NCBI GenBank assembly: GCA_026387315.1
Contig: JAPLLY010000017.1
Span: 1-64,000 of the forward strand
Direction: 5' to 3'
Origin: Candidatus Omnitrophota bacterium
Lineage (GTDB): Bacteria > Omnitrophota > Gorgyraeia > Gygaellales > Profunditerraquicolaceae
DNA length: 64,000 nucleotides
Shown: positions 30,999 to 60,359 of the stretch, one piece after another
How positions within the stretch are numbered: the stretch's first letter is position 1
Layout of the letters: each line of letters begins with the position of its first letter
The notes under the pieces: model-generated
Database searches by the model: none
Seen by the model: the letters and a program-made list of their open reading frames with translations, nothing else
What the model was told of the DNA's origin: nothing
Program-made: the position numbers and the translations under genes

Positions 30999-31545
30999 AG
31001 AATCTCCGCTAGATGAAATAAAAATATTGATAAAAGAATGCTTGGGACAGCTTTATACGAAAGATGCGCTTTTATTCAATAGGAATAACAGGAGAGGCAT
31101 ATGTGAACGTTGTCTTGTTTTCCGATTCGCACATTACTTACAAAATAATTTAACTAATTTCTTTGTAGATTGTGATTTTAATAGCTCATTTGAGGGGTTA
31201 ATTGATCAGAATGGCAGAGTCTATCAAGTAACAGAAAGACCTGGAAAGCAGATTCAGAACGAAGATGGAACAGTAACAAAGAGATTTGTAGATATAATTG
31301 TGCATAAAAGAATTTTTGATGGCAATAATGATTTTATTTGTTTTGAGATTAAGAAATGGAATAATAGATCGCAAAGTGATATCGACAAGGATACTAATAA
31401 TCTAAAGAGATTAACGTCTGATTATGGGTACCGATATGGATTTTACCTGATTTTGGGAGATACTAAAGAGAACAGTCAATGGGCTATATTTCAAAACGGG
31501 CATGTAATACAAGAAAATAGATTGGTATTCGGAAATGAAAACTAA
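30988..31545 (+). CDS. Nuclease-like (PD-(D/E)xK suspected) protein between hsdM and hsdS
   Basis: 185 residues. [10 protein letters not shown]...[12 protein letters not shown] supplies the D...ExK pattern of the PD-(D/E)xK fold, and the tail (YGFYLILGD) fits a later strand. It lies inside the type I operon, overlapping hsdM and hsdS, in the spot where accessory genes are carried. The ATG at 30988 is preferred to a GTG at 30976 because TAGGTGG then has normal spacing. The activity is inferred. Confidence 0.55.
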
Positions 31546-32815: not shown

Positions 32816-35800
32816 CACGCGCAATAATAGAATCAGAAGTTGAGCAAGTTGCCATAGATATCCTGAAAGAGATTGGCTATAAAACTATTTATGGTCCTAA
32901 TATAGCTCCTGATGGAGAAAAGCCTGAAAGGCAAAGTTATTCAGATGTTATTCTAGTCGATCGGCTGAGAGAGGCTATTGAAAGACTTAATCCAAAAATA
33001 CCTCAAGAAGCAAAAGAAGAAGCGGTAAAGAGAATACTTAGAAATGAAAGTCCAAGCATCATTGTCAATAATCATAATTTCCATAAGATGCTCGTTGAAG
33101 GCGTGGATGTCGAGTATAAGCATGATGGAAGAATAAAAGGTGATAAGGTCTGGCTTTTTGATTTCGACGATCCAAAGAATAAAAATAACGAGTTCCTTGC
33201 TATAAACCAATTCACCATCATAGAAAATAACTATAATAGAAGACCCGACATACTCCTATTTATCAACGGCTTGCCTCTGATTGCAATTGAGCTGAAAAAT
33301 CCTGCTGATGAAAATGCCACAGTAAAGACCGCATATAATCAATTTCAGACATACAAAACAGAGATTCCTTCCTTATTCAATTACAATGAAATTTTGGTTG
33401 TGAGTGATGGTCTTGATGCAAGGGCGGGCACATTAACTTCTGAATGGGAAAGATTCCTACCTTGGAAAACAATAGATGGAAAGGAAAAGGCTCCAACAAA
33501 AATTCCCCAGATTGAAGTTCTAATAAAGGGCATGTTTGATAAAGAAATTCTGCTGGACTTAATAAGATATTTCGTTGTTTTTGAGCAGGAAAAAAATGGC
33601 AAGGAAAATGTTATCAAGGTTTCAAAGAAAATAGCTGCATATCACCAGTATCACGCAGTAAATAAAGCGGTTGAAGCAACAATAAAGGCATCAAGTTCAA
33701 AAGGTGATAGGCGTTGTGGTGTGGTTTGGCATACGCAGGGCTCAGGGAAAAGCTTGATAATGGCTTTCTACACAGGGAAACTTGTTCTTGCCTTGGATAA
33801 TCCTACTGTTGTTGTCTTAACTGATAGGAATGATTTAGACGATCAATTATTTGGCACATTCAGCGGCTGCCAGGAATTGCTTAGACAGAAGCCTGTTCAG
33901 GCAGATTCAAGAGAAAAACTAAGGGAATACCTTAAAGTTTCTTCCGGAGGCATTGTATTTACCACAATTCAAAAATTCTTTCCGGAAGAAAAAGGCGACA
34001 AATATCCAATGCTTTCTGATAGAAGAAACATTGTTGTAATAGCTGATGAAGCCCACAGAAGCCAGTATGATTTTATTGATGGCTTTGCAAGGCATATGAG
34101 GGATGCTTTGCCAAATGCCTCTTTCATTGGATTTACGGGTACTCCAATTGAAAAATCTGATAGAAACACTCGTTCTGTCTTTGGGAATGACATAGATATT
34201 TATGATATTGAGCAGGCTGTCAATGATGGCGCAACAGTCAGGATTTATTATGAAAGTAGACTGGCAAAACTCGAATTAAAGAGCGAGGAAAAACCAAAGA
34301 TAGACCCTGAATTTGAGGAAGTTACTGAAGGCGAGGAAGTCGCAAAGAAGGAAAAACTAAAAAGCAAGTGGGCGAAACTTGAGGCCATTGTCGGCAGTGA
34401 GAAGAGAATAAAACAGATTGCCAAAGACATTGTTAATCATTTTGAAGAACGCCTCAAGGTTATGGAAGGAAAGGCAATGATTGTCTGCATGAGCAGGCGC
34501 ATCTGCATAGATTTGCATAATGAGATAGTGAAATTAAGGCCTGAATGGTACAGCAAAGATGACAAGAAAGGCATAATCAAAGTTATTATGACTGGTTCTG
34601 CAAGTGATCCTGTAGCTTGGCAGGAGCATATAAGGAATAAGCAAAAGAGAAGAGAGATTGGCGAGAGGATGAAGGATGAAAGTGATGAGCTGAAGATTGC
34701 CATTGTAAGAGATATGTGGCTTACTGGCTTTGATGTGCCATGCCTTCACACTATGTATATTGACAAGCCTATGAAGAGTCACGGATTGATGCAAACGATA
34801 GCTAGGGTAAACAGAGTATTCAAGGATAAGCCCGGCGGATTAATTGTTGATTATTTAGGCATTGCTGATGAATTAAAAAAGGCACTTGCAGAATATACTG
34901 AAAGCGGTGGCGAAGGAAAGCCAACATTTAACCAAGAAGAAGCAGTTGCATTGATGCTTGAAAGATATGAGGTAGTAACTATCCTGTTTGATAAATTTGA
35001 TTACAAGAAATTTTTTACAGCCTCCATTAAAGATAAGATGTCTATTCTTGCAATGGCTGAAGAGCATATTCTTAAGCAAAAAAGTGGTAAAGAAAGATGC
35101 TTATCTTACGTTACGCAATTATCGAGAGCATTCGCTCTTGCTGTTCCTCATGAAGAGGCTTTAAAGATAAGGGATGATGTTGGATTTTTTCAAGCAGTTA
35201 GAGCCAGACTTTCAAAATTTGAGACTTCAACAGGAAAAACAGAAGAAGAATTAGATTCAGCAATAAAACAGATTATTTCTAGGGCAATAGTGTCTGATAA
35301 GGTGGTGGATATTTTTGAAGCAGCTGGATTAAAGAAGCCAGATATTTCAATTCTCTCAGACGAATTCTTGGCAGAAGTCAAGGGTATGCCACATAAAAAT
35401 CTTGCCCTAGAACTACTCAGAAAACTGCTTAATGATGAGATCAGAACAAGATCAAGAAAGAATTTGGTTCAAGGAAAGTCTTTTGCCGATATGCTTGAGA
35501 AGACAATAAGAAAATACCAGAATAAAGCAATTGAGGCAGCTCAAGTTATAGAGGAATTGGTTGAGTTGGCAAAAGAGATGAGAGAGGCCAATAAGCGAGG
35601 GGAAGAATTAAAACTGTCTGAGGATGAGCTTGCTTTTTATGATGCGCTAGAAGTAAATGATAGTGCTGTTAAGGTTCTTGGCGATGATACATTAAGAGAT
35701 ATTGCAAGAGAGCTTGTTGATACTGTCCGCAAGAATGTTACGATAGACTGGACTTTAAGGGAAAGTGTTCAGGCAAAACTTAGAGTCATGGTTAAAAGAA

Positions 35801-35904
35801 TTCTCAGAAAATATGGCTACCCACCCGATAAGCAAAAGAAAGCCACTGAAACTGTTTTGGAACAAGCTACTTTAATCTGCAAAGATTGGGCTGAAATTAA
35901 GTAA
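32812..35904 (+). CDS. hsdR: Type I restriction enzyme endonuclease/translocase subunit
   Basis: 1030 residues, full length. N-terminal nuclease motif [20 protein letters not shown], Walker [16 protein letters not shown] box [15 protein letters not shown] motif III, and the helicase motif VI segment IARVNRVF. The C-terminal helical region binds the HsdMS core. The start overlaps hsdS as ATGA. There is no sign of decay, so the system is probably active. Confidence 0.96.
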
Positions 35905-37094: not shown

Positions 37095-37661
37095 ATGGAA
37101 TACCGCAATTCAGACTATGCAAATGCACTCCCTTCCTATTTGGATAATCCTGCACTGAAGCCAAGAAATTATTATGAAACCGGACTTGAGCAAGGCCTTG
37201 AAAGCATTGTCTTGAATGAAGAGCCTGCTGATAAGGGAGTGGTTGACAAGGTATTTGCTGACAAGGGCAGGACATTAAAGGCTACGGTAAAAGCTTTGTT
37301 CAATGAAATTCTTACGAGAGAGAAACTTGATTCTGAATTGTTAAAAAGAATTGATTCTGATATATGCAAAACAGATTCTTATCTTGAACAGATTCATTTT
37401 CTTACTAAAAGGCAGTATACGCCTGATCTTGACTTAGCATTTTCAAGGAGAAGGACGCAACTTGAAAGCCAGGTGAAAGATTTGGAAAAGGAAAAACGGC
37501 AGGAATACCATGAATGCTGGAAGGATTTAATGTTCTTAAAAAAATATCTACTTTCTGCTCTGAAAGATTACTGGAATTTGGGAGGCAGGAAAACATTTCT
37601 GAACGTTGAAAATGATGGATGTAGAGGATCTGTGCAGAAAACTGAAGCCTATAATTGGTGA
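37095..37661 (+). CDS. Unknown protein with coiled coil
   Basis: 188 residues, highly charged. A long coiled coil lies near residues 115-150 (RRRTQLESQVKDLEKEKRQEY). No known domain. The 3' end overlaps the ATPase gene by 47 bases in another frame, so the two are expressed together and the product may be a partner of that ATPase. Confidence 0.55.
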   Translation: MEYRNSDYANALPSYLDNPALKPRNYYETGLEQGLESIVLNEEPADKGVVDKVFADKGRTLKATVKALFNEILTREKLDSELLKRIDSDICKTDSYLEQIHFLTKRQYTPDLDLAFSRRRTQLESQVKDLEKEKRQEYHECWKDLMFLKKYLLSALKDYWNLGGRKTFLNVENDGCRGSVQKTEAYNW

Positions 37662-39591
37662 GAAGGCAGATGAACTGTGGTATATGTGGCTAGCTTCGAA
37701 TTTGCAGGAGCGTAAAGAGCTTGAGCTTGATATTCAGATAATCGCAGAGAAAGTTTTGAAACATGGGCCATTACAAGATAAGATTATTCTATTATCTCCG
37801 CCTTCAGAAGAGCAGGCCAAGGGCGATTTTATTTTAGGCAAGGTTATTTATCGGGATAAAAAATTATTTCCATTGTATCTTAAAGAAGCAGATTTCATAA
37901 GACAGGCCGGAATATTCAGCATAACGGGCGGTGGAAAAACAAATACGGGAATGCTGCTGGCTTTGCAGTTATTAAAAAAGAAAATTCCTTTTATGGTTAT
38001 TGACTGGAAAAGACAATGGCGTTCCATGCTAAGCCTGAATAATTTTCCTGAATTGAAAGATGTGCAGGTTTATACAATAGGAAGGGATGTTCTTCCGTTC
38101 CTCTGGAATCCGTTTAGGCCGCCCCCAAACATAGATTACAAGTCTTGGATATCTGTAATAATTGAATGTCTTGAAAAAAGCCATCTTGCAGGGCTGGGGG
38201 TAGGCGATATTTTCATAAGGATATATGAAAAACTGTTTAAGGAGGTTAAAAGCGATAATTTCTATCCTAATTTTTACGATGGATTAAACGAGTTGAGCAA
38301 GATTAAGGTTGGCGGTCGCGAGTTTTTGTGGTGGCAAAGCACGAAGAGGATATTCAACAGCTTCACATTTGGCAGCGCATCGAAATCATTCAATACAAGA
38401 GACCCGATTAAGCTTGAAGAACTGCTTGAGAAACCCGTTATCTTTGAGTTGGATCAGGAAATGCCAAAGCCATTAAGGATATTCTTCATGGAGATGATAA
38501 TAAGATTTATTCATCTTTACAGATTAGGGCAGGGTGAAAGTGAGAAGCTGAGGCATGTTTTGTTTCTCGAAGAAATCCATAATATATTTCAGAAAATGAA
38601 ATATGAAAAGGACAAGATTGACAGCCTTGAGAACGTCTATCGAGAGATAAGAAGTTTCGGGCAGGGGTTAGTCAGCATAACGCAGCATCCTTCGCTTTTG
38701 CCTACGTATGTTTTAGGAAATTCCAGGACGTTAATTTTTCTTGCATTGCAACATCAAGAGGATATCGAGGCGGCCCGGAAGGCTATTTTTATTCCGAGAG
38801 ATGATGAGGCATACCTGAACATGCTGAAAACCGGACAGGGAATAACGAAGATTATGGAAAGAATCAATCCCTGCCTTGTCCAGTTCTTATATGTGCCTGT
38901 TGAGAAGGGCAAAATAACTGATGAATGGCTTATTGAGAACAGGAGGGGGTATTCTAAACCTTCCAGCGACGCTAAAGAGGGTGAAAATAGGGGGTATTCT
39001 GCGGGGGATAATAAAGAGGATGGGTTTTTAGAATACCCCTCTGGTCTGAAGGAAAGGTTTCTTGCGGATATTTTTCTTAACCCTTTATCAAGCGTTACTC
39101 AAAGATACAAGAGAATAGGAGTTTATTTGCAAGCAGGAAATAAATGCAAGGATGATTTGATTTCAAATGGCTTTATTGCACCGAAAAAGATAATCACAAG
39201 TAAAGGCTGGATTACTCTATTCGAATTGACTCAGCAAGGAAGAATGATGTTAAATGAGATTGGCTATAAGACTGTTGATGACAAGGAAAGCATTATTCAT
39301 AAATTCTGGAAGTTTAAGATTGGCGAGTATTACAGGAGCAAGGATTTTGATGTTTTGATTGAGGAACATATTAACGGCAAACCGGATATTATTGTAATGG
39401 GCAACGGAAAGAAAGTTGCGGTTGAAATTGAAACAGGCAATTCTGATTATATTAAGAATATTGAAAGAGATGTTAAGGCTTTTGATGAGGTGATTTGCGT
39501 GGCTGTGAATAAAGAGGTTGAAGCGAGAATAAGACAGGAATTAAAGACAGAAGACGGGAAAATAAAGTTAACCACATCTCTAGAATTTTAA
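37615..39591 (+). CDS. HerA/FtsK-like ATPase fused to a nuclease-like domain
   Basis: 658 residues. ATPase: Walker A SITGGGKTNTG near residue 105, MVIDWKRQWRS, and Walker B HVLFLEEIHNIF, in the manner of HerA/VirD4-type DNA pumps. A low-complexity linker (residues 445-475) and a winged helix follow. The C-terminal 95 residues (GKPDIIVMGNGKKVAVEIETGNSDYIKNI) match a PD-(D/E)xK pattern. The same two parts occur as separate genes at 53859 and 55588. It may process or transfer element DNA. Confidence 0.68.
   Translation: MDVEDLCRKLKPIIGEKADELWYMWLASNLQERKELELDIQIIAEKVLKHGPLQDKIILLSPPSEEQAKGDFILGKVIYRDKKLFPLYLKEADFIRQAGIFSITGGGKTNTGMLLALQLLKKKIPFMVIDWKRQWRSMLSLNNFPELKDVQVYTIGRDVLPFLWNPFRPPPNIDYKSWISVIIECLEKSHLAGLGVGDIFIRIYEKLFKEVKSDNFYPNFYDGLNELSKIKVGGREFLWWQSTKRIFNSFTFGSASKSFNTRDPIKLEELLEKPVIFELDQEMPKPLRIFFMEMIIRFIHLYRLGQGESEKLRHVLFLEEIHNIFQKMKYEKDKIDSLENVYREIRSFGQGLVSITQHPSLLPTYVLGNSRTLIFLALQHQEDIEAARKAIFIPRDDEAYLNMLKTGQGITKIMERINPCLVQFLYVPVEKGKITDEWLIENRRGYSKPSSDAKEGENRGYSAGDNKEDGFLEYPSGLKERFLADIFLNPLSSVTQRYKRIGVYLQAGNKCKDDLISNGFIAPKKIITSKGWITLFELTQQGRMMLNEIGYKTVDDKESIIHKFWKFKIGEYYRSKDFDVLIEEHINGKPDIIVMGNGKKVAVEIETGNSDYIKNIERDVKAFDEVICVAVNKEVEARIRQELKTEDGKIKLTTSLEF
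38941..39045. repeat. Inverted/direct repeat inside the ATPase linker
   Basis: GGGGGTATTCT occurs at about 38945 and 38990, and its complement AGAATACCCC at about 39030. The repeats code for the linker (RRGYSKP, NRGYSAG, LEYPSG) between two domains, as if a hairpin had entered a tolerant site in the gene. Confidence 0.55.
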
Positions 39592-41979: not shown

Positions 41980-42008
41980 GGGCATGACGATAAACTGCCC
42001 TTTTATTT
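41980..42008 (+). terminator. Weak terminator after spoVG
   Basis: GGGCA (41980-41984) pairs with TGCCC (41996-42000), followed by TTTTATTT. The stem is short, but the position just after the operon is right. Confidence 0.45.
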
Positions 42009-43508
42009 CCATCCAAATAATGCCTTAAAGAAATCAATGATATTTTGAAAGAATGTCTTTGATTTTAACTGAGAAGGTGTTTTTATTTGTGTTTGATTTT
42101 CTATTTTATTGGGTTGCTGTAAAGATATATTCTGATTATCGCTAGAAGCATATCCCGTACCTTTATACTCTAAATGTATCTCTTTAATTCTAAAGTCATT
42201 GGATAACTTATCTAATCCCTCTTTTGTTATGCTTGCATCAAAATCCCCATTGCTCTTATAAATCATATTCAGCTCTCTTTCAGAGTAGTTTTCTAAAATA
42301 TTTTCTAGGGCTATTCTAAGCACAGCATTTTTTTGATCTACTAATACCCTCCTTTCCTCTTTTGTGCCTTGAAAAGTAATATTTGATATATCTACAATTA
42401 CCACATAAACATCAACCCAAGTCTGGTTTTGCTCGAAAGCGGTTATAACTGCCGGGTCAATATAGGGCTTAGGATTTGAAGCGCCATATATGGGGGTTGA
42501 GTAGTAAATTCTAGTTATTCTCGAATCGTTAGCTAAGATGTCAAAAACTTCTTTTGTAATAAAGGCTCCAAAGCCATTAGATAATTCTGCCACACTTCTT
42601 AATCCCTCTGGAGGCAAGTTTGCAATAATTGTGTCGCTAAAGTTGCTTAGGATGGCTTCCTGACGTTGTATATCTCTATACCTTTTTTCAACAGGGTCAT
42701 CAAGATTTATGGTTATGTTTGAAATATCAATAGTTCTTACAATAACATCAACCCATGTTTGGTTTTCAAAAGCTTTCAGTATTTCAGGATCAACATAAGG
42801 CAGGGTTTGATTTTCAGCTTCTTGAGAAGGAGAGCCACCTTGAAGGGGAATAACAATAGACCTGATATAGGGGCTATTGCTTAGCTTTTCTAAACCCTTC
42901 TTTGTGATGTAACCATTAAAATGAAACCCGCTTAGAGACAACCTAGTAGTATTAAATTCATCTACTGAAAGATTAGATACTATTTGCTCGCGAATAATTT
43001 TTAAGTGATCTTTAATTTCTTGTGTAAGCGCAAACTTTTCTTCTCTCGACAAGCTAGGATCTATGTATATCCCACTCGTATCTTTTATGCTAACTCCGAC
43101 ATAAACCCACTCTAAATTTTCTAGCGCTGCTGGTACTTTTGGGTCTATAAAGACAGGAATTGTTATATTAGTTGGATTATCAGAGGCTAAAGACGCTCCT
43201 ATGTTGTAAATCACTTGGCTAACATTTGAGTTATTAGCTAAAATATCAAGTCCCTCTCTCGTTATATTACCTACGAAATAAGGCAGATAGCTATTTCTCT
43301 TTTGCTCGAATTGAAATTCACTTTCTGGTAGGATGGCAATAACCTCATCTAATGCCTCGGGGGTGTTTACAATAATACCTACATTACACCATTTGCTTTG
43401 ATTCAGTATTTCATAAACCGAACTGCTGATAACCGGGGTGGAGTTTGCCAAGTTAAGGCTGGCAAGAATTACCATCACAGCGATTAATATTAATGCCAGC
43501 TTCTTCAT
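42003..43508 (-). CDS. Secreted protein with four peptidase-inhibitor-I9-like repeats
   Basis: 501 residues. Signal peptide KKLALILIAVMVILASLNLA. Four repeats of about 100 residues, each with WV(D/Y)V.V.I.D(I/T)S near the start and (I)TKEG(L/F)D.L(S/A)N(D)SRI..I at the end; this is the pattern of subtilisin propeptides/I9 inhibitors. It may inhibit or chaperone proteases outside the cell. The ATG at 43508 is chosen over 43514 because a TTAAATAA box is then 25 bases upstream. It ends in FFQNIIDFFKALFGWK, which echoes the next gene. Confidence 0.6.
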   Translation of the reverse strand: MKKLALILIAVMVILASLNLANSTPVISSSVYEILNQSKWCNVGIIVNTPEALDEVIAILPESEFQFEQKRNSYLPYFVGNITREGLDILANNSNVSQVIYNIGASLASDNPTNITIPVFIDPKVPAALENLEWVYVGVSIKDTSGIYIDPSLSREEKFALTQEIKDHLKIIREQIVSNLSVDEFNTTRLSLSGFHFNGYITKKGLEKLSNSPYIRSIVIPLQGGSPSQEAENQTLPYVDPEILKAFENQTWVDVIVRTIDISNITINLDDPVEKRYRDIQRQEAILSNFSDTIIANLPPEGLRSVAELSNGFGAFITKEVFDILANDSRITRIYYSTPIYGASNPKPYIDPAVITAFEQNQTWVDVYVVIVDISNITFQGTKEERRVLVDQKNAVLRIALENILENYSERELNMIYKSNGDFDASITKEGLDKLSNDFRIKEIHLEYKGTGYASSDNQNISLQQPNKIENQTQIKTPSQLKSKTFFQNIIDFFKALFGWK

Positions 43509-43592
43509 CTCCATGGAAGCCGATTTCTTTATTTAATCCTTTTGTTTTCTCCAAATCCAAAAAATTAAATAGAGATTTCTGCTTATAATTAG

Positions 43593-44984
43593 ATGAAAAA
43601 GCCAGTGCTGGTCTTATTAGCAATAATGATAATTCTGGCAGGCTCAGTTATCGCTAATGCCCAGAATGAAGCGCAAAATGCGGCAAAGCAATCTTGGTTT
43701 GATAGTTTTATTGGTTTCTTCAAAACGCTGTTTGTGAAGATGTTTAATATTGAAGAGAAAAAGGGTGCGACTATTAATGAACAAGGGAATCAATTTAATA
43801 AAGCGGCCGGAGAAAAGGAGAAAACAGAGGTTGCCGATATAACGAATGTAACTTGCGGAGATTGCCAGTATTTCTCTAATCACACTTGTCTGAATTATAC
43901 CTGCTGTAAAAATGACGAATGCTTATCAGATAAAGTCTGCATCTCTCATGAATGCGAAACACTAAACTGCGTCTCTTGTCAGTATGCAGATAATCATAGT
44001 TGCTTAGATTATGAATGCTGTAAGGATACGGACTGTGCGGAAGGGAAGGTGTGTGGTTTCAACAAATGTATGGAAAAAGGGAATTTGTCTGCTTATACTG
44101 TGCCCTTTGAAAAATTAGTGGAAACTGGTCGTTATGGTCCAAAAATAATAGGGTATGATTTCCCCGACAGCCTGCCTCATCTGTCAATCCCCGTTGACCC
44201 CTTGCTAGGGGAAGGCTCAACATTAATATTTGCAGTCATAAGGAGCCAAGAAGATTTTGTTTACGTAAAAAATAATGTAGTCCCATTCCCTAGTTGTTGC
44301 CAGCAATTGTATTTTAGTAATTATTTCTTGGTGTTGCTTTCAGGACACCTAGTTTCTGGGGGTTACTTCTTTACTACTGAAGAGGTCACGGCAACTCAGA
44401 ATAAAATTAATATATTATTTTCTAGGGGAACTAGTGATTACGGGAATGATGCAGAAAGTCTGTTCATGATAAAAAAATCAGATTTGATACAAGGAAATAA
44501 TCTTGATTTTGTATTTATTGATTCCCATAATCGTTCACTGACATGGACAATACATGATGTTGATATTGATATTGAAGAAAAATGCCCACCTTGTGACCCC
44601 CCATATATCAGCCCGACAACAGGTAATATTTGCGAGTTCTATTATTGCAATGCTTCAACCCATTATGCCAATGATCCCACAAAGTTCTTTTGTGTGCGTA
44701 AGTTAATACAACCTTGTTGTGGAAATAATGAATGCGAGATTTCGTTGGGCGAAAATGAGGAAAACTGCCCGGTAGACTGTCAGAATATATCGAAATTTCT
44801 GTATTGTGAAACAGACGAAAATTGTGCTCCTTGTTGTCAAAATCAACAAGGGAAATGTATGAACATAAATTATAGTTGCTCTGACTACCCCACATACTTT
44901 TCGCCTAATTTATGTGGGAAGGATATTCAGCCAATGTACTTGCCATGTGGGTGTGTAAATAATCAATGTATGACTGTACGTTAA
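43593..44984 (+). CDS. Secreted cysteine-rich protein
   Basis: 463 residues. Signal peptide (VLVLLAIMIILAGSVIANA), then WFDSFIGFFKTLF, like the tail of the divergent neighbour. Two tandem Cys modules of the form C..CQY..NH.CL.Y.CCK...C...KVC (residues 88-150). Later come a globular part and CGNNECEISLGENEENCPVDC, a repeat type common in surface proteins of small-genome archaea. A TTAAATA box is centred 25 bases before the ATG and there is no ribosome site. Confidence 0.6.
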   Translation: MKKPVLVLLAIMIILAGSVIANAQNEAQNAAKQSWFDSFIGFFKTLFVKMFNIEEKKGATINEQGNQFNKAAGEKEKTEVADITNVTCGDCQYFSNHTCLNYTCCKNDECLSDKVCISHECETLNCVSCQYADNHSCLDYECCKDTDCAEGKVCGFNKCMEKGNLSAYTVPFEKLVETGRYGPKIIGYDFPDSLPHLSIPVDPLLGEGSTLIFAVIRSQEDFVYVKNNVVPFPSCCQQLYFSNYFLVLLSGHLVSGGYFFTTEEVTATQNKINILFSRGTSDYGNDAESLFMIKKSDLIQGNNLDFVFIDSHNRSLTWTIHDVDIDIEEKCPPCDPPYISPTTGNICEFYYCNASTHYANDPTKFFCVRKLIQPCCGNNECEISLGENEENCPVDCQNISKFLYCETDENCAPCCQNQQGKCMNINYSCSDYPTYFSPNLCGKDIQPMYLPCGCVNNQCMTVR

Positions 44985-47449: not shown

Positions 47450-49174
47450 ATGGGTGAAGATGAAGGTTATAGTTCTGAATATAATCTTTTTGATGAGAAA
47501 GAGGGGGAAGACGAGCCCTTAGATATTCCAGAAGGGAAAAGGAGAATCTATACTGATACCCCTAAAATCAGAATCGGGGAGCTATACACGCAATGGAAAA
47601 GAGGCAATTTAGAAGTTAGACCTTATTTTCAAAGGGGATTTGTCTGGGATGTCAAAAAAGCAAGCAGACTAATAGAAAGCATACTTCTCGATGTCCCTAT
47701 ACCCATGATTTATACCGCAGAAGAGAAAGACGGCAAGGAGATAGTAGTAGATGGACAGCAAAGATTGATTTCTGTTTTTTCATATATTGATGGCATCATC
47801 CCACCAGAGAACAAGACATTTTGGCTTAGGGGCCTAGAGGTTTTAAAAGAGTTGGAAGGAAACAAGTTTACTGAGTTGAGTAAGCCTGATCAGGAAAAAA
47901 TCTATAGGTATAGCATCCCTTTTACTGTAATCCAGAAAGATTCAGCAGAAGAGATTAGGTTTGATATTTTTGAGAGATTGAATACCGGCTCAGTCCAGTT
48001 GAATGACCAAGAGCTAAGAAACTGCACTTATCGCGGAGAATATAATGAGCTATTACGGGATTTGGCTCAGAACAAGGATTTTCAGTTCATCTTAAATAAC
48101 TCAAGATTGAATATTAGAATGCTTGATTGTGAGTTGATTTTAAGATTTTTTAGTTTCTATCACACGCCTTACTGGGAGTATAAGTCACCTATCAAATCTT
48201 TCTTAAATAAAGAGATAATAAAGTATAGAAATATTGATGAAAAAGAGGCGTCTATCCTAAAGGAAGTGTTCAAGAATTCAGTTGAATTAACGAAAACAAT
48301 ATTTGGGAATAGGGCTTTTAGAAGATTCGAGCCAGGAAATGAAAAAGATGTTAACGGTAGCTATGAGTTGGCTAAGTTAAATAGAGGGTTATTTGACATA
48401 ATTATGTATGGGTTCAGCCGTTACAATAAAAATCAAGTAATACCATGCGCAGACGCTGTTCGAGAGGAACTATTATGGCTTGAGACTTATGATGTGGATT
48501 TTATTAATTCTATAAGCGGTTCTGGAACAGACAGAATGGATAGAATCCAACTGAAATTTAAAAAATGGCTTGATTCCCTGCAAGAAATTGTAGGAAAACC
48601 AGAGTCTCGAGCCAGAGTTTTCTCGCTAAATATAAAGCGTCAACTTTTTGATAGCAATCCTGCTTGTGCGATTTGTGGGCAGACAATAATGACACTTGAT
48701 GACGGAGAAGTAGATCACACAGAATTTTATTGGAGAGGCGGACAAACAATATTATCTAATGCGAGACTGGTTCATCGATGTTGTAACAGGGCAAGAAAAT
48801 GGAAAGATAACCCCGGAGAAATAAGCGAAACAAGGAAGATGAGGATTATGGAGAAAGGTAGGGGGGAGCACAGAATGTCCGGCATGTGTATGCCTCAAGA
48901 AGAATATACAATTCCGATTCTTGAGGTACTCAATAAGATGGGTGGCACGGGCAAATCGAAGTATGTTATTAAACTAATTGGAGAGAATATGAAATCAAAA
49001 CTTTTGCCAGGAGATCTTAAAAAAATAGAATCTGGATTAGTGCGATGGGAAAACAAAGTTGCATGGCAGAGATTTAAGATGGTTAAAGAAGGACTGCTTA
49101 AGCAAGATTCCCCGCAAGGAATATGGGAGATTACCGAAATCGGCAGAAAATATCTTGCTAATCAGAAATTATAG
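47450..49174 (+). CDS. DUF262-HNH protein with C-terminal winged helix, probable restriction-type nuclease
   Basis: 574 residues. The DUF262 (ParB/GmrS-like) domain is at residues 40-200, with YFQRGFVWD, IVVDGQQRLIS and FDIFERLNTGSVQLNDQELR. An HNH region follows at about residue 405 (CAICGQ...GEVDHTEFYWRGG...NARLVHRCCN). Then comes a winged helix like the Mrr N-terminal domain (GLLKQDSPQGIWEITEIGRKYL). The DUF262 plus HNH pair is the plan of modification-dependent GmrSD-type enzymes, so a defence role is likely. TTTTTATACA is 25 bases before the ATG. Confidence 0.78.
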   Translation: MGEDEGYSSEYNLFDEKEGEDEPLDIPEGKRRIYTDTPKIRIGELYTQWKRGNLEVRPYFQRGFVWDVKKASRLIESILLDVPIPMIYTAEEKDGKEIVVDGQQRLISVFSYIDGIIPPENKTFWLRGLEVLKELEGNKFTELSKPDQEKIYRYSIPFTVIQKDSAEEIRFDIFERLNTGSVQLNDQELRNCTYRGEYNELLRDLAQNKDFQFILNNSRLNIRMLDCELILRFFSFYHTPYWEYKSPIKSFLNKEIIKYRNIDEKEASILKEVFKNSVELTKTIFGNRAFRRFEPGNEKDVNGSYELAKLNRGLFDIIMYGFSRYNKNQVIPCADAVREELLWLETYDVDFINSISGSGTDRMDRIQLKFKKWLDSLQEIVGKPESRARVFSLNIKRQLFDSNPACAICGQTIMTLDDGEVDHTEFYWRGGQTILSNARLVHRCCNRARKWKDNPGEISETRKMRIMEKGRGEHRMSGMCMPQEEYTIPILEVLNKMGGTGKSKYVIKLIGENMKSKLLPGDLKKIESGLVRWENKVAWQRFKMVKEGLLKQDSPQGIWEITEIGRKYLANQKL

Positions 49175-53429: not shown

Positions 53430-53914
53430 AAAAGGCAAGGTTAGTTGATAAAAGACCGGCTGAAAACGGTTCTGCTGAGGAAGTCAATGAGGGTGCTGTA
53501 ATCAATACAGAAATTACCAAAACAAAACCCGTGAAATTCTCGGGAGACGGGATCGTATCTTTTCAGCGAAACACCAAGCCGACAGAGGAGGGTCTTGAAG
53601 TCGAGCAGATAAAGCCTTCTCTTTTTGACGGAAGAGGAAGGCACTTAAACAGTGAATCAGAATTAAAAGGCGAATGCCACGTCTGCCATAAAATTGTTTC
53701 CATTATCTTCTATTGTCATGATTGCAAGAAACTGCTCTGCGAGGAACACGCGTATGCTTTTAAAGAAAACGAAGAAGTGCTTTATTTCTGCGAAGAGGAT
53801 TTCATAAAAAAAGTGATGAACCAGAACATGTGGGCAAAAAGGAAACAATTGAAAGGCCATGAAGAATACTTACGAAAAAATAAACAAGTTCGACCCGAAC
53901 AATCCCAAGGCTGA
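53426..53914 (+). CDS. Zinc-finger protein (AN1/B-box-like Cys-His cluster)
   Basis: 162 residues from the ATG at 53426. A disordered N-terminal half, then CHVCHKIVSIIFYCHDCKKLLCEEHAYAF, a CxxC...CxxC...CxxH zinc motif of the AN1/B-box kind, then CEEDF and a basic tail. Co-translated with its neighbours; it overlaps the ATPase gene by 56 bases. It may link the membrane protein to DNA or to the ubiquitin-like cassette downstream, which is an inference from position only. Confidence 0.5.
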   Translation: MKKARLVDKRPAENGSAEEVNEGAVINTEITKTKPVKFSGDGIVSFQRNTKPTEEGLEVEQIKPSLFDGRGRHLNSESELKGECHVCHKIVSIIFYCHDCKKLLCEEHAYAFKENEEVLYFCEEDFIKKVMNQNMWAKRKQLKGHEEYLRKNKQVRPEQSQG

Positions 53915-55601
53915 CTTATTCTCTTATGCAGATAAAGCCGTTGCGCGCATTGAGCATATTGCAGATGAAGCCGGGATTAGCGAGATAAAGGCCGTGCAGA
54001 ATGCAATTAAGATTATCAGGGGCTTCCCGAGAAATTATGAGCTTGTAAACAGGGAAGTTGAGAAAGTCGAGGCGCTGGTCATGAGCAACAAAAACAATAA
54101 TTCAAAGAATAAGGCCATTTCGGAAGTATTCAAAAACGGGACCATTGCCATAGGCAGAATTGAGGAGGCCGGAACAGAAGTAAAGTTATCGGTGCCTGAC
54201 TTCAGCGGTAATGTGCTTGTTTATGGCCAGTACGGTATGGGAAAGACCAACCTGAATCAGGTGATAATCCCACAGCTTGTTTCTCAAGGAATACACGTTG
54301 ATGTTTTTGATGTAACCAATGACTATAGGGATCTTATCTTAGTCCCGGAGTGTAAAGATGGGTTGGTGCTTAATCATGAGACAGACAGATTAAATCCTCT
54401 TGATATCATTGGTAACCTTGATGAAGATTTGCAATTTTTCTGGGAGATAACGAGCCAGGATTTTAATATTCATAATGAAACAAAGGAGATGCTTTTTAAT
54501 TACAGTATTGAGCTTTATGAAAAATTTGGAGTTCGCGAAGGTGGTGATCCGCCGACCCTATTTGACCTGCGTGACCGGCTGAAAGAGGAAAGAGAAAAGA
54601 AAGGCACAAGCCCGGCAACCAAAAGGAAAATTGACACTGCAATAAGCAAGCTGAATTACATTCTCAGCACTTTTGGAAAAATGGTCAATTGCAAAAGAAG
54701 CTACTCCTTGGATGTTCTGGACAGTTATCCCGTTGTAATCCGCGAAGTAAGTGCGCTGAGCGAGGATAAAAGATCGTGGTACATCAAATTAAATCTGAGG
54801 CGGTTTTATAACAAAGGATTGGCTGGCAAGGAGAGGCACAAGGTCAAGAGAGTAATAGTTATTGATGAGGCAAAGGCTATTTTTGGAAAGTCTGTAATCG
54901 GTGAAGCCTCTAATTTTATAAAGGACACCTTCACAAAAAGCCGTTCAAAAGGTGATGTCTATGTTCTCAGCGATCAGTTTGCGACTGAGCTTGCGCCTTT
55001 TACAAGAGCAGCCAATTGCCAGTTATGTTTTCAGCACACTGTGCCAAGCGAGATAAGGGAGATAGCAACATCAATAGCAGGCGATGAATCAACCAGGGCA
55101 GAAATTCCAAAGCTTGGTAAGTATAAGGTCCTGATGAAAATAACGGATTTCCCTTATCCTTTTCCTGTTGTTATATACAAATCAAAAGTGGAAAGGCATA
55201 TAGATGATGCAGAAAACGCAAGGCTGATGAAAGATAAGCATGCGAGGTTAAACAATGAGCCGCAGAAAACGAATGACAAAAAAAGAGCGCGGGTTATTGT
55301 TAGGGAATTAGTCCGGGAAAGCAGTAAAGCACTGATTAAAGTAATTTCTCAGGTGAAGGGGAATGTCTTGGATGATCTGGAAAGATTTCTGAAATACATA
55401 AAGGATAATCCTAACAGCAAAGTAACAGAGATATACCAAGCTCTTGGATTATCAGGCAGAAAAGGAAACAGCTTAAAGACCAAGGCAAAAGAAAACCAAC
55501 TGATTATTGAAAAGAGTGAACACAGGGAAGGCAAGGGAAGGCCATCCATTGAACTGGAATTGACAGATAAAGGGAAGGAATACCTCAATGAAAAGCAATA
55601 A
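53859..55601 (+). CDS. HerA/VirD4-like DNA-pumping ATPase
   Basis: 580 residues. Walker A VYGQYGMGKTNL at about residue 133, Walker B RVIVIDEAKAIF, sensor region YVLSDQFATELAP and arginine-rich strand end. This is the pattern of HerA/TraD-type coupling ATPases. A winged helix at residues 505-575 (SKVTEIYQALGLSGRK...ELTDKGKEYL) ends the protein. Together with the four-helix protein at 53019 it could pump element DNA. It overlaps the nuclease-like gene by 14 bases. Confidence 0.72.
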   Translation: MKNTYEKINKFDPNNPKADLFSYADKAVARIEHIADEAGISEIKAVQNAIKIIRGFPRNYELVNREVEKVEALVMSNKNNNSKNKAISEVFKNGTIAIGRIEEAGTEVKLSVPDFSGNVLVYGQYGMGKTNLNQVIIPQLVSQGIHVDVFDVTNDYRDLILVPECKDGLVLNHETDRLNPLDIIGNLDEDLQFFWEITSQDFNIHNETKEMLFNYSIELYEKFGVREGGDPPTLFDLRDRLKEEREKKGTSPATKRKIDTAISKLNYILSTFGKMVNCKRSYSLDVLDSYPVVIREVSALSEDKRSWYIKLNLRRFYNKGLAGKERHKVKRVIVIDEAKAIFGKSVIGEASNFIKDTFTKSRSKGDVYVLSDQFATELAPFTRAANCQLCFQHTVPSEIREIATSIAGDESTRAEIPKLGKYKVLMKITDFPYPFPVVIYKSKVERHIDDAENARLMKDKHARLNNEPQKTNDKKRARVIVRELVRESSKALIKVISQVKGNVLDDLERFLKYIKDNPNSKVTEIYQALGLSGRKGNSLKTKAKENQLIIEKSEHREGKGRPSIELELTDKGKEYLNEKQ

Positions 55602-55956
55602 CCATAAAGAAGCCCAGAAAACAATACAGGATTACTACATAAGCATTGGCTGGATTGCGATCATAGAGCATTACATCAGGGGTAAAAAGATAGATGTTCT
55701 GGCGCAGAACATCAAAACAAAACGCACCATAGCAAATGAAATACAGCTTACTTCCAGGCATTTTCTTGAGAACATACAGCTCGACATTAAAGCCGGCTGC
55801 GATGAGGTAATAACCATCTGTCTAGATAATTCCACATTGGAAGAAATAAAGCGAAAAGCCCAGACAGGTTTAGACAAAAACCTGCTTGGGAAAACAAGGT
55901 TCCAGCATATAGAAGAATTTATTCCGCATTCGCGCAATAACAACAACACAAAATAA
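55588..55956 (+). CDS. PD-(D/E)xK-like nuclease, stand-alone
   Basis: 122 residues. YYISIGWIAIIEHYIRGKKIDVLAQN...TIANEIQLTSRHFLENIQLDIKAG, with Asp and Glu in the places of the PD...ExK motif (the last position is Gln-Leu). The same arrangement of strand, D, E and DEVI strand forms the C-terminal domain of the ATPase at 37615, and here it follows an ATPase gene directly. Likely a DNA end or site processing partner. Confidence 0.58.
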   Translation: MKSNNHKEAQKTIQDYYISIGWIAIIEHYIRGKKIDVLAQNIKTKRTIANEIQLTSRHFLENIQLDIKAGCDEVITICLDNSTLEEIKRKAQTGLDKNLLGKTRFQHIEEFIPHSRNNNNTK

Positions 55957-56033: not shown

Positions 56034-56798
56034 ATGGAAAAACCTATCCGTATAGTGGTGGGAGGTAGCGGCGTGGAAAAAGACCTCATGATCTCGCCCG
56101 GTGCAACAGTGGCTGAGGTTACTGAGGAAGCAGGCCTGCGCGGTTACCAGTTGGCAAGAAAAGGCGAAAAAGAGCCTCTTGCTCCCGAAACCGATCTTTT
56201 CAAGGAGGCTGCTGATTCTGAAACATTTTATGCATCTCCTTCTAAGGTCGAGGTAGGGGGCGGAGGCTCCGCCTCCCTCTATCATTCTTTTGATTTGTTG
56301 AAAACAAAAGCGATTTACTTACTTGATAGGATTAAGCGTTGGTTTCAAAGAATAAGAAATCGCTCGCCTGTCTTTAAGAAAAAAAGAGTGGTGGTTATCA
56401 GGACAAGAATTTTCAGGCAAAAAAAGGAAATAAGCCGGGCAGGGATTAAGGTTAAGGTAATCTATAAAGAAACAACATCTCGATTGGTTGTTAAAGGCAA
56501 GAAACCCCTTTATTGGCAGAAGAGCGGATGGCTAAAGAGAGGAAGAGATTATTACGAGGGGTTTTATAAAACGTATTTTGGCAAATGGCGCGGTTCCATC
56601 AGGGAAAACTATAAAGGAAATTATTCTTTTTATATTTCAGATCCGCCAGATGAAGTGCTGGACGGCGAGCATGGCGTATGTTTTTTCTTCCTGAACGATA
56701 CACTTTATTTCGTTCATTTCAAACATGAGCCCAATGATATTAGCTCAGGTATTATGGCAGTGGAAAAGGTAATCAGCAATTCTTTTAAGGAGGCTTGA
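56034..56798 (+). CDS. Ubiquitin-like domain fused to a second domain
   Basis: 254 residues. Residues 1-74 look like a beta-grasp/ubiquitin-like fold (IRIVVGGSGVEKDLMISPGA, then YQLARKGEKEPLAPETDLF) ending in Gly75-Gly78. A basic linker follows, then a domain at 165-254 (YYEGFYKTYFGKWRG...CFFFLNDTLYFVHFKHEP) that I cannot assign; an E2-like role is possible because the next genes are a JAMM protease and an E1-like enzyme. GAAAGGAGG precedes the ATG. Cleavage after the Gly run would release a Ub-like modifier. Confidence 0.62.
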   Translation: MEKPIRIVVGGSGVEKDLMISPGATVAEVTEEAGLRGYQLARKGEKEPLAPETDLFKEAADSETFYASPSKVEVGGGGSASLYHSFDLLKTKAIYLLDRIKRWFQRIRNRSPVFKKKRVVVIRTRIFRQKKEISRAGIKVKVIYKETTSRLVVKGKKPLYWQKSGWLKRGRDYYEGFYKTYFGKWRGSIRENYKGNYSFYISDPPDEVLDGEHGVCFFFLNDTLYFVHFKHEPNDISSGIMAVEKVISNSFKEA

Positions 56799-56799
56799 A

Positions 56800-57450
56800 A
56801 TGTTTTGGCGATCAAACAAGAAAAAGAAAGTCAAGCTGATCATTCCTGAAAAAGCAATAGATTTCAGTTTTGACAAGCAGTTATGTGAATTGATGCAGAA
56901 AGGTGTCTTGGAAATTTCATGCAGGCGCATGCTTTTGAGCCAAAGAATGAACGAAGCTATCCTTGGAAATTTAAATGAAATCAGGGAATTGCATTATTGC
57001 ATTGGCTCAAGATTCCTTCGCATGAATTACGGGATTTTCTGTAGATCTGAAAAAGAATCAGTGCATCTTATAACAGGGATAGAAACCGGCATTCTAAAAC
57101 ATCTTGATGAGGCATTGATTTTAAATCATGAAGTAAAAGAGTTGGTTAATGCAAAGATTTTTGACAGTGAGGTAAATATCTATATGCAGAATTTACATTT
57201 TGAAGGCTATAAGTTATTCGGCTGTTTTCATATTCATCCGGGTTCTGGTGCTGGCTCAACGTATCCTTCAAGCATAGACATTGAATTGATTGGCAATTTA
57301 GAAAGAGGGGAATACCCTGCAGTCAGCGCAATATTCAGCAGGGATGGTTATATCAGGTTCATGGCTCCGTTTCAGTTTAAAATTCATATTCATGGCAGTG
57401 GAGTGAGGAAAATAAATGAAGAACTCTTCCAGTTGGTTAAAGTCAGTTAA
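56800..57450 (+). CDS. JAMM/MPN metalloprotease
   Basis: 216 residues. HIHPGSGAGSTYPSSID supplies the HxHP...SxxD zinc motif, with an upstream Glu (HLITGIETG). The spacer between HxHP and SxxD is longer than in most JAB proteins. Such enzymes cleave Ub-like precursors or conjugates. It starts one base after the Ub-like gene, and its 3' end overlaps the E1 gene by 35 bases, so the three are one translation unit. Confidence 0.78.
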   Translation: MFWRSNKKKKVKLIIPEKAIDFSFDKQLCELMQKGVLEISCRRMLLSQRMNEAILGNLNEIRELHYCIGSRFLRMNYGIFCRSEKESVHLITGIETGILKHLDEALILNHEVKELVNAKIFDSEVNIYMQNLHFEGYKLFGCFHIHPGSGAGSTYPSSIDIELIGNLERGEYPAVSAIFSRDGYIRFMAPFQFKIHIHGSGVRKINEELFQLVKVS

Positions 57451-58198
57451 ATATCAGGCCAAAGGCGTATTAGGCCCTGAAGTTACCCTAGCTCAGGAAG
57501 CAGTGCCTGGTTTTGATCAGTCTGTTATGAACAGGCTAAGGGTCCTGCTGATTGGCGCTGGGGGATTAGGCTGTGAAATAGCACAGGGGTTACTTCGCAA
57601 AGGTGTTGCCCAGCTGAAGATATTTGATGGGGATACTGTCTCTTTGACGAATCTCACGCGGCAGTATTTTTACGAATCCGATCTTGGGAAGAATAAAGCT
57701 ATCTGCCTCGGGAAGAATTTACTTAATGAAGCTACAAGGAAAACAGAGATTATAGCTTATCCTATTATGTTTCAGAAAGGGGTTGAAGAGAAAATTGATA
57801 TGAGTTGCGACGTTGTTGTATGCGCCCCTGATAACGATAAAACAAGGGCTTCTGCTTCAAGACATTTTTTGAATAAAGTACCTGTGATTTTTACAGGACT
57901 AGATGAAGAAGGAACAACAGGCTATGTTTTTATTCAGGAACCGGGGAAGGCATGTATTGCTTGTGCAAGACCTGACGTAACAGAATCAAGTATAGAAAGA
58001 AATCCTTGCAGACAGGCAGCAGCCATAATTGATTTAGGGAAAATAATTTCAGGGTTCACTATTTTTGCAGTTGATTCAGCTGTAATGAACAGAAAGAGAG
58101 ATTGGAATTTCAGGCAGCCGTTTATGGCTGGTTATTTGCCGGAGACGTTAAAGACAGTAGAGAAGAGAAAAGGCTGTCAAATTTGTGGAAAGAAGTAA
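57416..58198 (+). CDS. E1-like adenylyltransferase (ThiF/MoeB family)
   Basis: 260 residues. Nucleotide loop LIGAGGLGCEIAQ (GxGxxG), FDGDTVSLTNLTRQYFY (Asp plus the LTNLTRQ form of SNLNRQ), and two CxxC pairs for zinc (CIACARP, CQICGKK). A Cys in NPCRQAAA may be the thioester site. It would activate the C-terminal glycine of the Ub-like protein encoded two genes upstream. GTGAGG lies before the ATG. Confidence 0.85.
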   Translation: MKNSSSWLKSVKYQAKGVLGPEVTLAQEAVPGFDQSVMNRLRVLLIGAGGLGCEIAQGLLRKGVAQLKIFDGDTVSLTNLTRQYFYESDLGKNKAICLGKNLLNEATRKTEIIAYPIMFQKGVEEKIDMSCDVVVCAPDNDKTRASASRHFLNKVPVIFTGLDEEGTTGYVFIQEPGKACIACARPDVTESSIERNPCRQAAAIIDLGKIISGFTIFAVDSAVMNRKRDWNFRQPFMAGYLPETLKTVEKRKGCQICGKK

Positions 58199-58491
58199 TG
58201 AATAAGAAAAACTTTTACAGAGAACAGGCTGAACAATTCAAAGGATACTTTCAAAAGTATCCTTGCGGGAATTTGCTGTCTCTTTTTGGGAAGTGGTGCG
58301 AGTCCAAGGATATTGAAGGGAAGGACAAACATTATATCTGGAAGATAACGAGGCATTTCAAGCCCATCGAGAAAAAAGAAATAGAAAAAGGGAGCGATGA
58401 AGCGGTAAGAATAGGCGAGCTTATCAATGTAATTTTTGGGGCGGACCTTGAAAAGCTGAAAAAGATTGCTGAGAAGAAAGAAGCAGAATAA
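58198..58491 (+). CDS. Small helical protein closing the ubiquitin-like operon
   Basis: 97 residues. The ATG overlaps the E1 stop by one base (TAATG). Helical and charged: KNFYREQAEQFKGYFQKYPC, then WKITRHFKPIEKKEIEKGSD. No family recognised. It may be a target or an adaptor for the Ub-like system. Confidence 0.5.
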   Translation: MNKKNFYREQAEQFKGYFQKYPCGNLLSLFGKWCESKDIEGKDKHYIWKITRHFKPIEKKEIEKGSDEAVRIGELINVIFGADLEKLKKIAEKKEAE

Positions 58492-58530: not shown

Positions 58531-58716
58531 ATGCAAAAAAAGGTTTACAACATTCCCCAAGCCGCAAAAGTTCTAGGCGTCCACGAAATGACGATAAGGT
58601 ACTGGATAAAAAAGAAGTGGATTTCTGTCCAGTATGATTACCGCAATTATCCTGTGTTTACTGATGAGGACATAAAGAAGATTGAGGTTTGGCGAAATAC
58701 ATTGAGGACGCCATGA
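58531..58716 (+). CDS. MerR-like helix-turn-helix partner of the serine recombinase
   Basis: 61 residues: NIPQAAKVLGVHEMTIRYWIKKKW, then YDYRNYPVFTDEDIKKIEVWR, a full MerR-type HTH and wing. Its stop overlaps the recombinase start as ATGA, so the two are made together. IS607-type recombinases carry the same HTH fused to the catalytic domain, and here it is a separate chain. It could steer site choice or excision. A homologue lies at 19209. Confidence 0.78.
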   Translation: MQKKVYNIPQAAKVLGVHEMTIRYWIKKKWISVQYDYRNYPVFTDEDIKKIEVWRNTLRTP

Positions 58717-60359
58717 AAGTAGCCCTGTACACAAGAGTTTCTACTGAGGATCAGGCACGCGAGGGAACATCCCTTGAAGTGCAAAGTGAATTTCTTGTTT
58801 CTTATGCAAAGAAGCAGGACTGGGATGTCTTTGACATTTATGTTGATGACGGCTATAGCGGTAATCTTAGAGACAGGCCCGCCCTGAACAGGCTTTTTTA
58901 TGATGCAAGGAAAAAGAAATTTGATGTTGTTCTTGTGTATAAGCTTGATCGGTTTGCACGGAATAATCGTTTACTATTGAATCTTGTTGCTGAGTTAAAC
59001 GAGTTTGCAGTTGGATTTCAATCAGCCACAGAATCTTTCGATACTGTAACAGCTGCGGGAAAGATGTCCTTGAGTATGCTTGGAACAGTCGCTCAGTTTG
59101 AAAGGGAAAGAATTATTGAAAGAGTGTTTCCCGGCATGATTAAGGGAGTGGAAAAAGGCAATTGGCAGGGTGCTAGATATGTTCCTTATGGCTACAAATA
59201 CAACAAGCATGATCCCGAAAAGAAATTGATTATTGTAAAAGAAGAGGCTGATGTTATAAAGCTGATTTATACAATGTATCTTTCAGGGCAGAGTACAACG
59301 CAGATTGCAGGCTACCTATATAATAAGGGTTATAAAACAAGAAGCGGGGGAAAATTCCATTCAAAACTTGTATGCGATATGCTGAAGCGAAAGCTCTATA
59401 TTGGTATTATTGAATGGAACAATCATCATTATGACAAAAAGCAGAAGACGTTAAAGGGTTACAAATATGTAAGGAACGATGCCTCAAAGGTTGTTTCAGG
59501 AAGAGGAAAGCACGAGGCGATTGTCTGTGAAGAAGATTTTTATGCTGTTCAAAAAAAGCTTGAGAACAACAGGAAAGGCATGTCAGTAAGGAAGGGCAGT
59601 TCTGATTACCCTCTTACAGGAATTTTGATATGCGGCAATTGCGGCCACAGGATGCAGGGATGTTTAAGCATTGCTTCCAGGGAAAACAAAAAGACAAAGG
59701 GCAAGAGAAGATATTACAGGTGTTGTGGGAGATCAACTCATTACGCTGAATGTTATGAAGGCTCTGTGCAGGCAGAGAAGATTGAAGAAGAGGTTTATGC
59801 GATTATTGATGTTGTGCTGAGCAATCCTGAGCTTGATGAAAAAAGATTGGATAATCTTGCGAGCATTCTAAGCACTTCAAGGAATGATGAGATTGAAAAA
59901 GAGATTTCCGGGATAGACAAGAAGCTCAAGGATAATATTTCAAGGCAGGAGAAACTTGGAAAGGCGTTTTCTGATAGTCTTATTGCGCATGAGGCTTTCA
60001 AAAATTTGATACTTCCTTTAAGGGATGAGCAGAGGGAATTTGAGGAGAAGAGGCAGAGGCTGAAACTCAGCCTTATTGAGAGGGAGAAATCAGAAGAATA
60101 CCAGAGAATGCTCAAGGCAGTCATTAATCATTTTGATTTCATAAAAGAAGATTTGGACGCAACAGGAAGAAAAGGGCTGTTGAGGTTGATGTTCAAGAGG
60201 ATAGTTATTGCGAATTGCAAGATAAAGGAATTTGAGCTTTACGAGCCGTTCAAAAGCTTGTATGAGGGAAGAGGGATAAAATGGGAAGTGATGGAAAATC
60301 AAAGGGTTGTGGAAAATCCGGGCTGCGTCTCTACATACGCACCTTCGGATGTCAAATGA
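58713..60359 (+). CDS. Large serine recombinase (integrase of element B)
   Basis: 548 residues. Resolvase domain with nucleophile Ser10 (LYTRVSTEDQ), YKLDRFARN and FERERIIERV. A recombinase domain follows (NWQGARYVPYGYKYN), then a zinc ribbon (CGNCGHRM...YRCCG...YAEC) and a long coiled coil (residues 400-475). The ATG at 58713 begins at the catalytic domain; an upstream in-frame ATG at 58689 would add eight residues. The gene runs through attR, so its last two codons and stop are host DNA. Confidence 0.95.
   Translation: MKVALYTRVSTEDQAREGTSLEVQSEFLVSYAKKQDWDVFDIYVDDGYSGNLRDRPALNRLFYDARKKKFDVVLVYKLDRFARNNRLLLNLVAELNEFAVGFQSATESFDTVTAAGKMSLSMLGTVAQFERERIIERVFPGMIKGVEKGNWQGARYVPYGYKYNKHDPEKKLIIVKEEADVIKLIYTMYLSGQSTTQIAGYLYNKGYKTRSGGKFHSKLVCDMLKRKLYIGIIEWNNHHYDKKQKTLKGYKYVRNDASKVVSGRGKHEAIVCEEDFYAVQKKLENNRKGMSVRKGSSDYPLTGILICGNCGHRMQGCLSIASRENKKTKGKRRYYRCCGRSTHYAECYEGSVQAEKIEEEVYAIIDVVLSNPELDEKRLDNLASILSTSRNDEIEKEISGIDKKLKDNISRQEKLGKAFSDSLIAHEAFKNLILPLRDEQREFEEKRQRLKLSLIEREKSEEYQRMLKAVINHFDFIKEDLDATGRKGLLRLMFKRIVIANCKIKEFELYEPFKSLYEGRGIKWEVMENQRVVENPGCVSTYAPSDVK

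Follow-up and report, generated by a model that had tools for sequence, protein, structure and literature searches.

We analysed a 64,000-nt stretch of contig JAPLLY010000017.1 from a Candidatus Omnitrophota bacterium (hereafter the window). Between positions 56034 and 58491 it contains four open reading frames that agree in position and strand with the preliminary description and are either spaced by one nucleotide or overlapping. The first (56034–56798, plus strand) encodes a protein of 254 residues that consists of an N-terminal ubiquitin-like (Ubl) domain (residues 1–78; 56034–56267), a linker (56268–56489) and a C-terminal, E2-like domain (residues 153–254; 56490–56798). The Ubl domain ends with the motif VEVGGGG (residues 72–78), in which Val74 precedes Gly75, Gly76, Gly77 and Gly78. 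The linker includes a basic amphipathic helix modelled with low confidence (residues 86–110 of the model), and the E2-like domain contains the motifs H213-x2-C216-F217 and H228-F229. One nucleotide past the stop codon of this gene begins the coding sequence of a JAMM/JAB metalloprotease (56800–57450, plus strand, 216 residues). It is overlapped by 35 nt by the gene for an E1-like adenylyltransferase of 260 residues with a candidate catalytic cysteine, Cys198 (57416–58198, plus strand). The fourth reading frame starts with the ATG at 58198, where it shares a TAATG overlap with the E1 gene, and codes for a small helical protein of 97 residues (58198–58491, plus strand). This protein had been counted as a cassette member, but it has no counterpart at the equivalent position in two of the related loci described below (L013 and L014) and gave no match in Pfam, NCBIfam or PADLOC. 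Since it is not conserved in relatives we rejected it as a component of the system; it probably lies outside the core set.

The flanking genes are also encoded on the plus strand. Upstream lie a HerA/DUF87-type ATPase with a winged-helix tail (53859–55601; DUF87, 1e-7) and a 122-residue protein whose PD-(D/E)XK-like fold is read from motifs alone (55588–55956); both are conserved neighbours of the cassette. Downstream, a MerR-like helix-turn-helix (HTH) protein (58531–58716; MerR_1, 1.4e-6), which occupies an equivalent place in L014, precedes a large serine recombinase (58689–60359; Resolvase, 4.4e-36; Recombinase, 6.9e-21) that abuts miaB.

The cassette occupies the right end of an integrative element of the serine-recombinase type, about 40.6 kb in length (about 19,725–60,351), that has integrated into the 5′ end of miaB. 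At the left junction (19695–19731, plus strand) a truncated miaB start (MRKKVFVRTYG) is followed by the element sequence GGATGGCCGTTG. The right junction (60330–60351, plus strand) leads into the body of miaB and is identical to positions 14503–14524 at 20 of 22 nucleotides; no other site in the window scores as high as 17/22. Two truncated miaB starts, one at 14484 (MNKNKRFYIRTFG) and one at 19695, are each followed by GGATGGCCGTTG, and the miaB gene of a genome from the same genus (G223) starts with MRKKVFVRTYGCQMN. The empty site is seen in another relative (G125), where an intact miaB comes after an MscS-type gene. The doubled truncated start and the empty site together indicate two tandem insertions, the first of which measures about 5.2 kb (14,520–19,729) and uses the same miaB site. 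Sequence that matches the window at 17.3–19.7 kb, or the right part of it, adjoins miaB in G223 and G284. The stretch from 14.5 to 60.35 kb had been considered as a single element, an interpretation that was rejected after the internal junction at 19,695–19,731 had come to light. The terminal recombinase, the host gene truncated at the junctions and the empty site in a relative confirm that the cassette resides on a mobile element, as had been proposed.

The Ubl-E2 fusion protein is present in a single copy in its own genome. We found six further copies of the cassette: two in Omnitrophota, three in the phylum of Brocadia and one on an IMG/VR contig (L015). Among 384 genomes searched in the home phylum we found two more convincing copies, one from the same genus (G223, Candidatus Omnitrophota, contig JAUYBI010000028.1) and one from the same class (G183, contig CAJVXN010000021.1). 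A profile search of 392 genomes from the Brocadia phylum added two copies (G656 and G415) to that of Candidatus Brocadia WS118 (L013). With three carriers among 384 and three among 392 genomes, counting the starting genomes, the cassette family is rare. Scans of viral contigs produced only L015. The fusion protein found no match among plasmids and phages by tblastn, and neither this protein nor its homologues match Pfam, NCBIfam or PADLOC; plasmid matches to the E1 were limited to generic HesA/MoeB/ThiF proteins. Six additional candidates (L004, L005 and L061–L064) were discarded with E-values of about 3e-4 to 1e-2, most of them with internal stops. The order Ubl, E2-like, JAB, E1 is kept in all seven loci, with two methyltransferase genes placed between JAB and E1 in L012. 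The Ubl and E2-like parts are fused in the window, L014 and L065, and are separate genes in L012, L013, L015 and L066, where the E2-like gene lies between Ubl and JAB. Because the same four-part set is found at seven loci, its catalytic residues intact, the cassette is more than a chance arrangement.

How may these parts work together? The prediction that the N-terminal domain is a beta-grasp Ubl was borne out by structure modelling. AlphaFold2 returned a beta-grasp order with a pLDDT of about 92 over residues 1–73, and Foldseek matched this model to TINCR, TmoB and SUMO as well as to the bacterial Ubl complexes 8tyx_A and 8tyz_B. These models support the assignment of residues 1–78 to the Ubl fold. 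Residues 74–93 and 110–154 of the fusion fall below a pLDDT of 50, consistent with a disordered linker. The C-terminal end of the Ubl reads V-G in six of seven sequences and V-A-G-G in the seventh; neither the four-glycine run nor even a diglycine is conserved. None of the separate Ubl proteins ends at glycine. They terminate in VGK, VGKK, VGIPGNKF and VAGGAEVRAA, and the fused Ubls continue as VGGGG-SAS, VGAGG-STP and VGAG-FWRR. Every Ubl therefore carries residues past the glycine (K, KK, IPGNKF, GGAEVRAA or the E2-like part) that would have to be trimmed. Since the E2-like part is a gene of its own in four copies, the fusion in the other three looks like a Ubl-E2 precursor. Hence the idea of a precursor in the preliminary description stands, and the plain reading of these sequences makes every Ubl a precursor in need of trimming, with the fusion as one form of it. 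In eukaryotic ubiquitin-fusion precursors the modifier likewise sits at the N-terminus and must be released by cleavage after glycine; there the partner can be a ribosomal protein, whereas here the Ubl is joined to what is probably its own pathway's E2.

The protease displays a complete JAMM signature: Glu86-x6-Gly93, His144-x-His146-Pro and Ser157-x2-Asp160, in which the spacing from HxH to Asp is the usual ten plus three residues. Glu86, His144, His146, Ser157 and Asp160 are conserved in seven of seven sequences; the L066 protein has His-Arg in the place of His-Pro. Although the protein scores below the Pfam cut-off (E = 0.22; 0.0021 for a homologue), a profile of five sequences identified Rpn11 as its best relative of solved structure (E = 0.0024), in line with the JAMM assignment. 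The E1-like protein matches Pfam ThiF with E = 1.5e-27 and contains GAGGLG (47–52), Asp71, Asn79, Arg82-Gln83, Lys94, Cys198 and two pairs of zinc cysteines (Cys180/Cys183 and Cys254/Cys257). Across the relatives it remains a single ThiF domain of 245–283 residues. Its catalytic residues are conserved, and the candidate cysteine occurs in all seven, shifted by the alignment in L015. The preliminary description had named loss of active residues from JAMM or E1 homologues as one observation that would speak against it; these residues are kept in all seven loci, and both enzyme assignments hold. The L014 E1 (L014:3663-4442) lacks all four zinc cysteines and retains the candidate catalytic cysteine.

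When the seven E2-like domains are aligned, 11 columns are invariant. These include Cys216-Phe and His228-Phe, with the histidine at exactly +12 from the cysteine. The histidine upstream of Cys216 is shifted in L066 (HxC). Among the loci found, the domain is confined to Ubl/JAB/E1 cassettes. The label E2 derives from this context, from the conserved residues and from a weak fold hint discussed below. The invariant Cys and His and the standalone genes in four of seven loci agree with the earlier suggestion that this domain is the E2-like part, and we consider an E2 role quite probable. The arrangement also recalls known enzymes. In class 6d E2s a histidine downstream of the cysteine is absolutely conserved (PMC1779556), and BilB, a bacterial E2 that has been studied, uses Cys138 and His151 at +13 (PMC11354881). 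The similarity is one of arrangement and does not prove kinship.

In six of seven loci the cassette has an ATPase of the FtsK/HerA/VirD4 superfamily beside it. In L012, L013 and L065 this is a TraG-like coupling protein encoded next to the E1. A Replic_Relax-type gene comes next after the TraG-like gene in L013 (E = 4.5e-24) and, by reading, in L012/L007. In the window, L014 and L066 it is a HerA-like protein accompanied by winged-helix and PD-(D/E)XK-like pieces, the latter being a separate gene in the window and in L014 and fused to the ATPase in L066. The gene order in L014/L008 is HerA, nuclease-like, Ubl-E2, JAB, E1, HTH and serine recombinase, with an adjoining comEC-like fragment. No HerA/TraG ATPase occurs anywhere in the 70.5-kb contig of L015. 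Since such ATPases abound on mobile elements, the association is suggestive only. Where the fusion protein has its linker, the standalone E2-like homologues have a transmembrane or hydrophobic N-terminus instead: a transmembrane segment is predicted in L012 and L066 (mean hydropathy 2.35 and 2.45) and a hydrophobic N-terminal segment in L013 and L015. The JAB of L065 has a strong predicted transmembrane segment (3.41). Compared with these segments, the protein in the window has only its basic amphipathic stretch, and L014 has no clear amphipathic helix past its glycines. Judged from sequence, this pattern suggests that some cassette members may work at the membrane.

Cassettes with Ubl, E1, E2 and JAB functions are known from bacteria, and the present one is a relative of these that falls outside the classes compared here. 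With PRTRC and class 6d systems it shares separate Ubl, JAB and E1 genes, an E2-like cysteine with a downstream histidine, and an occurrence on plasmids or mobile elements (PMC1779556). In contrast to these systems, in which the Ubl usually ends in glycine, its Ubl is tailed or fused, and it has an ATPase as neighbour instead of a ParB-type gene; the window neighbours and the open reading frame lists of the relatives include no recognisable gene of that type. For profile comparison we took PRTRC proteins from plasmids other than pMOL30, because pMOL30 gave no match to PF14460. With shallow profiles of four to six sequences, which could miss remote kinship, hhalign returned 0.2%, 0.9% and 0.1% for PRTRC Ubl (C), E2 (B) and JAB (A) against their cassette counterparts; the 97.9% for the two E1s is expected of any pair of E1s. 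The cassette E1 scores 51.9 bits against TIGR03736, below the cut-off of 144.75, and in an E1 tree the PRTRC proteins form their own clade (100/100) apart from that of the cassette. The proposed kinship with PRTRC systems was therefore not upheld. Bil operons encode the same four activities, their Ubl is trimmed by a JAB protease, and their E2 cysteine is followed by a histidine about 12 to 13 residues on. However, BilA contains two Ubl domains, compared to one in all seven cassettes, and BilD combines inactive and active adenylation domains (IAD and AAD) with a Cys domain, compared to one ThiF domain of 260 residues; the Bil Ubl is also not fused to an E2-like part. Class 6e polyUbl systems can contain a Ubl fused to an E2-like domain, but their E2-like domains lack the cysteine that is invariant here, and their JAB forms one protein with E1. 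In classes 6a and 6b it is the E2 that is fused to E1, unlike in the cassette. A type II CBASS operon (Cap2/Cap3) likewise combines chemistry of the E1, E2 and JAB types, but it conjugates the C-terminus of a CD-NTase rather than a Ubl, its E2 is fused to E1, and the cassette includes no CD-NTase. By the features tested, the cassette is not PRTRC, Bil or class 6e.

The sequences show which domains are present, that catalytic residues are conserved, how the genes are ordered, that the Ubl and E2-like parts can be fused or split, that an ATPase lies nearby and where the element begins and ends; from these observations we infer a pathway with its chemical steps, E2, target and purpose. The Ubl would be made as a precursor, in the window joined through the Gly4 stretch to its own E2-like enzyme. 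Cleavage by the JAMM protease at the glycine stretch would release Ubl-Gly and the free E2-like enzyme, which in several relatives would have a membrane-binding N-terminus. The single-domain E1 would adenylate the C-terminus of the Ubl and take it onto Cys198. From there the Ubl would be handed to Cys216 of the E2-like domain with assistance from His228, and then joined to target proteins, from which the same JAMM protease could remove it. Proteins located at, or close to, the HerA/TraG-type DNA-translocating ATPase next door would be the likeliest targets; the system would then regulate or police how the element's own DNA, or competing DNA, moves. Activation of the Ubl together with processing by JAB is very probable, and a Ub-like conjugation system as such is likely. 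For the full reading, that the cassette is a dedicated Ub-like protein-conjugation system of integrative mobile elements, DNA transfer included, we estimate a probability of about 0.62. The choice of DNA-transfer proteins as targets is tentative, at less than even odds. More tentative still is the specific model of a membrane-associated system for conjugative or integrative DNA transfer, in which the Ubl on a HerA/TraG-type ATPase or a DNA-processing partner would switch movement on or off and the precursor would deliver Ubl and E2 together. We know of no earlier case of Ub-like regulation of a bacterial DNA-transfer machine; if true, this would be the first. Bacterial Ub-like pathways have so far been characterised mostly as phage defence. 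The minimal set of parts, the fusion of Ubl with its likely E2 and the link to DNA-translocating ATPases are distinctive. If confirmed, the cassette would offer biochemists a Ub-like system of very small size and would allow a link between protein tagging and mobile-DNA movement to be tested; the purpose of Ub-like systems on mobile elements would become a directly testable question.

The cargo of the element bears on a different purpose, namely anti-phage defence in the manner of Bil or type II CBASS, with the Ubl placed, during infection, on phage structural proteins or on an effector of defence. The element contains a complete type I restriction system (29469–35904), a GmrSD/NsnA-like nuclease with GmrSD_N/HNH and Mrr_N domains (47450–49174) and a methyltransferase gene; the restriction genes would then be fellow cargo of the cassette, and Bil offers a precedent with the same four activities. 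On the other hand, PADLOC matched only a generic E1 domain, the conserved cassette has no effector or nucleotidyltransferase, and its conserved neighbour is a DNA-translocating ATPase. We regard a defence function as unlikely.

Within the conjugation reading itself, the C-terminal domain might be a metal- or DNA-binding module, comparable to the double wing of MotA, that places the Ubl while the E1 conjugates directly. The domain folded on its own gave a confident AlphaFold2 model (pLDDT 91, pTM 0.84). The lowest E-value in Foldseek belongs to T4 MotA (E = 0.03), and the H-x2-C-F...H cluster could also form a metal site, which counts against an E2. However, the TM-score to MotA is 0.44, compared to 0.58 for 9a0j_l (E = 1.2), the best among the matches listed, and 0.52 for 7kzp_L; none of the matches is significant. 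Both chains belong to Fanconi core complexes, and from chain and length we take them to be FANCL, which has a domain of E2-like fold. Profile searches of PDB sequences returned noise and no E2, and comparison with BFVD likewise gave noise only. These models support an E2 fold for residues 153–254 only weakly. The invariance of Cys216 and His228 in the face of a shifting upstream histidine, and the restriction of the domain to Ubl/JAB/E1 cassettes, argue for the E2 role and make the alternative module distinctly improbable.

The E1 tree unites the cassette E1 and its six homologues in one clade (92/94), which is placed closer to ThiF/MoeB-type housekeeping proteins than to the E1s of PRTRC, and the top NCBIfam model is ThiF. 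These similarities, together with the JAB-trimmed sulfur carriers of class 4, would fit a role in sulfur transfer or peptide processing, with a Ubl thiocarboxylate formed as in ThiS/MoaD or siderophore Ubls, trimming by JAB and an unrelated C-terminal domain, but this is very improbable given that neither a rhodanese domain nor a gene of sulfur or cysteine metabolism lies nearby, that mobile elements carry the set next to genes for DNA processing, and that a Cys/His domain always stands between Ubl and JAB.

Some further features of these elements deserve mention beside the conjugation cassette. The 40.6-kb element encodes a second HerA-like ATPase, with a fused PD-(D/E)XK-like domain (37606–39591), a tyrosine integrase (45998), and two divergent genes for probable secreted proteins (42003–44984) that, on reading, give the impression of being archaeal (DPANN-like). 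A direct-repeat search in L014 revealed no clear junction. The 5.2-kb insertion (14484–19731 with its junctions) carries a HATPase gene (17294–19087); a copy with about 92% DNA identity lies beside miaB in G223. The 5′ end of miaB is a recurrent integration site in this genus, as seen in G330 (L052), G223 (L053) and G284 (L054), and in G330 it is occupied by a different serine recombinase.
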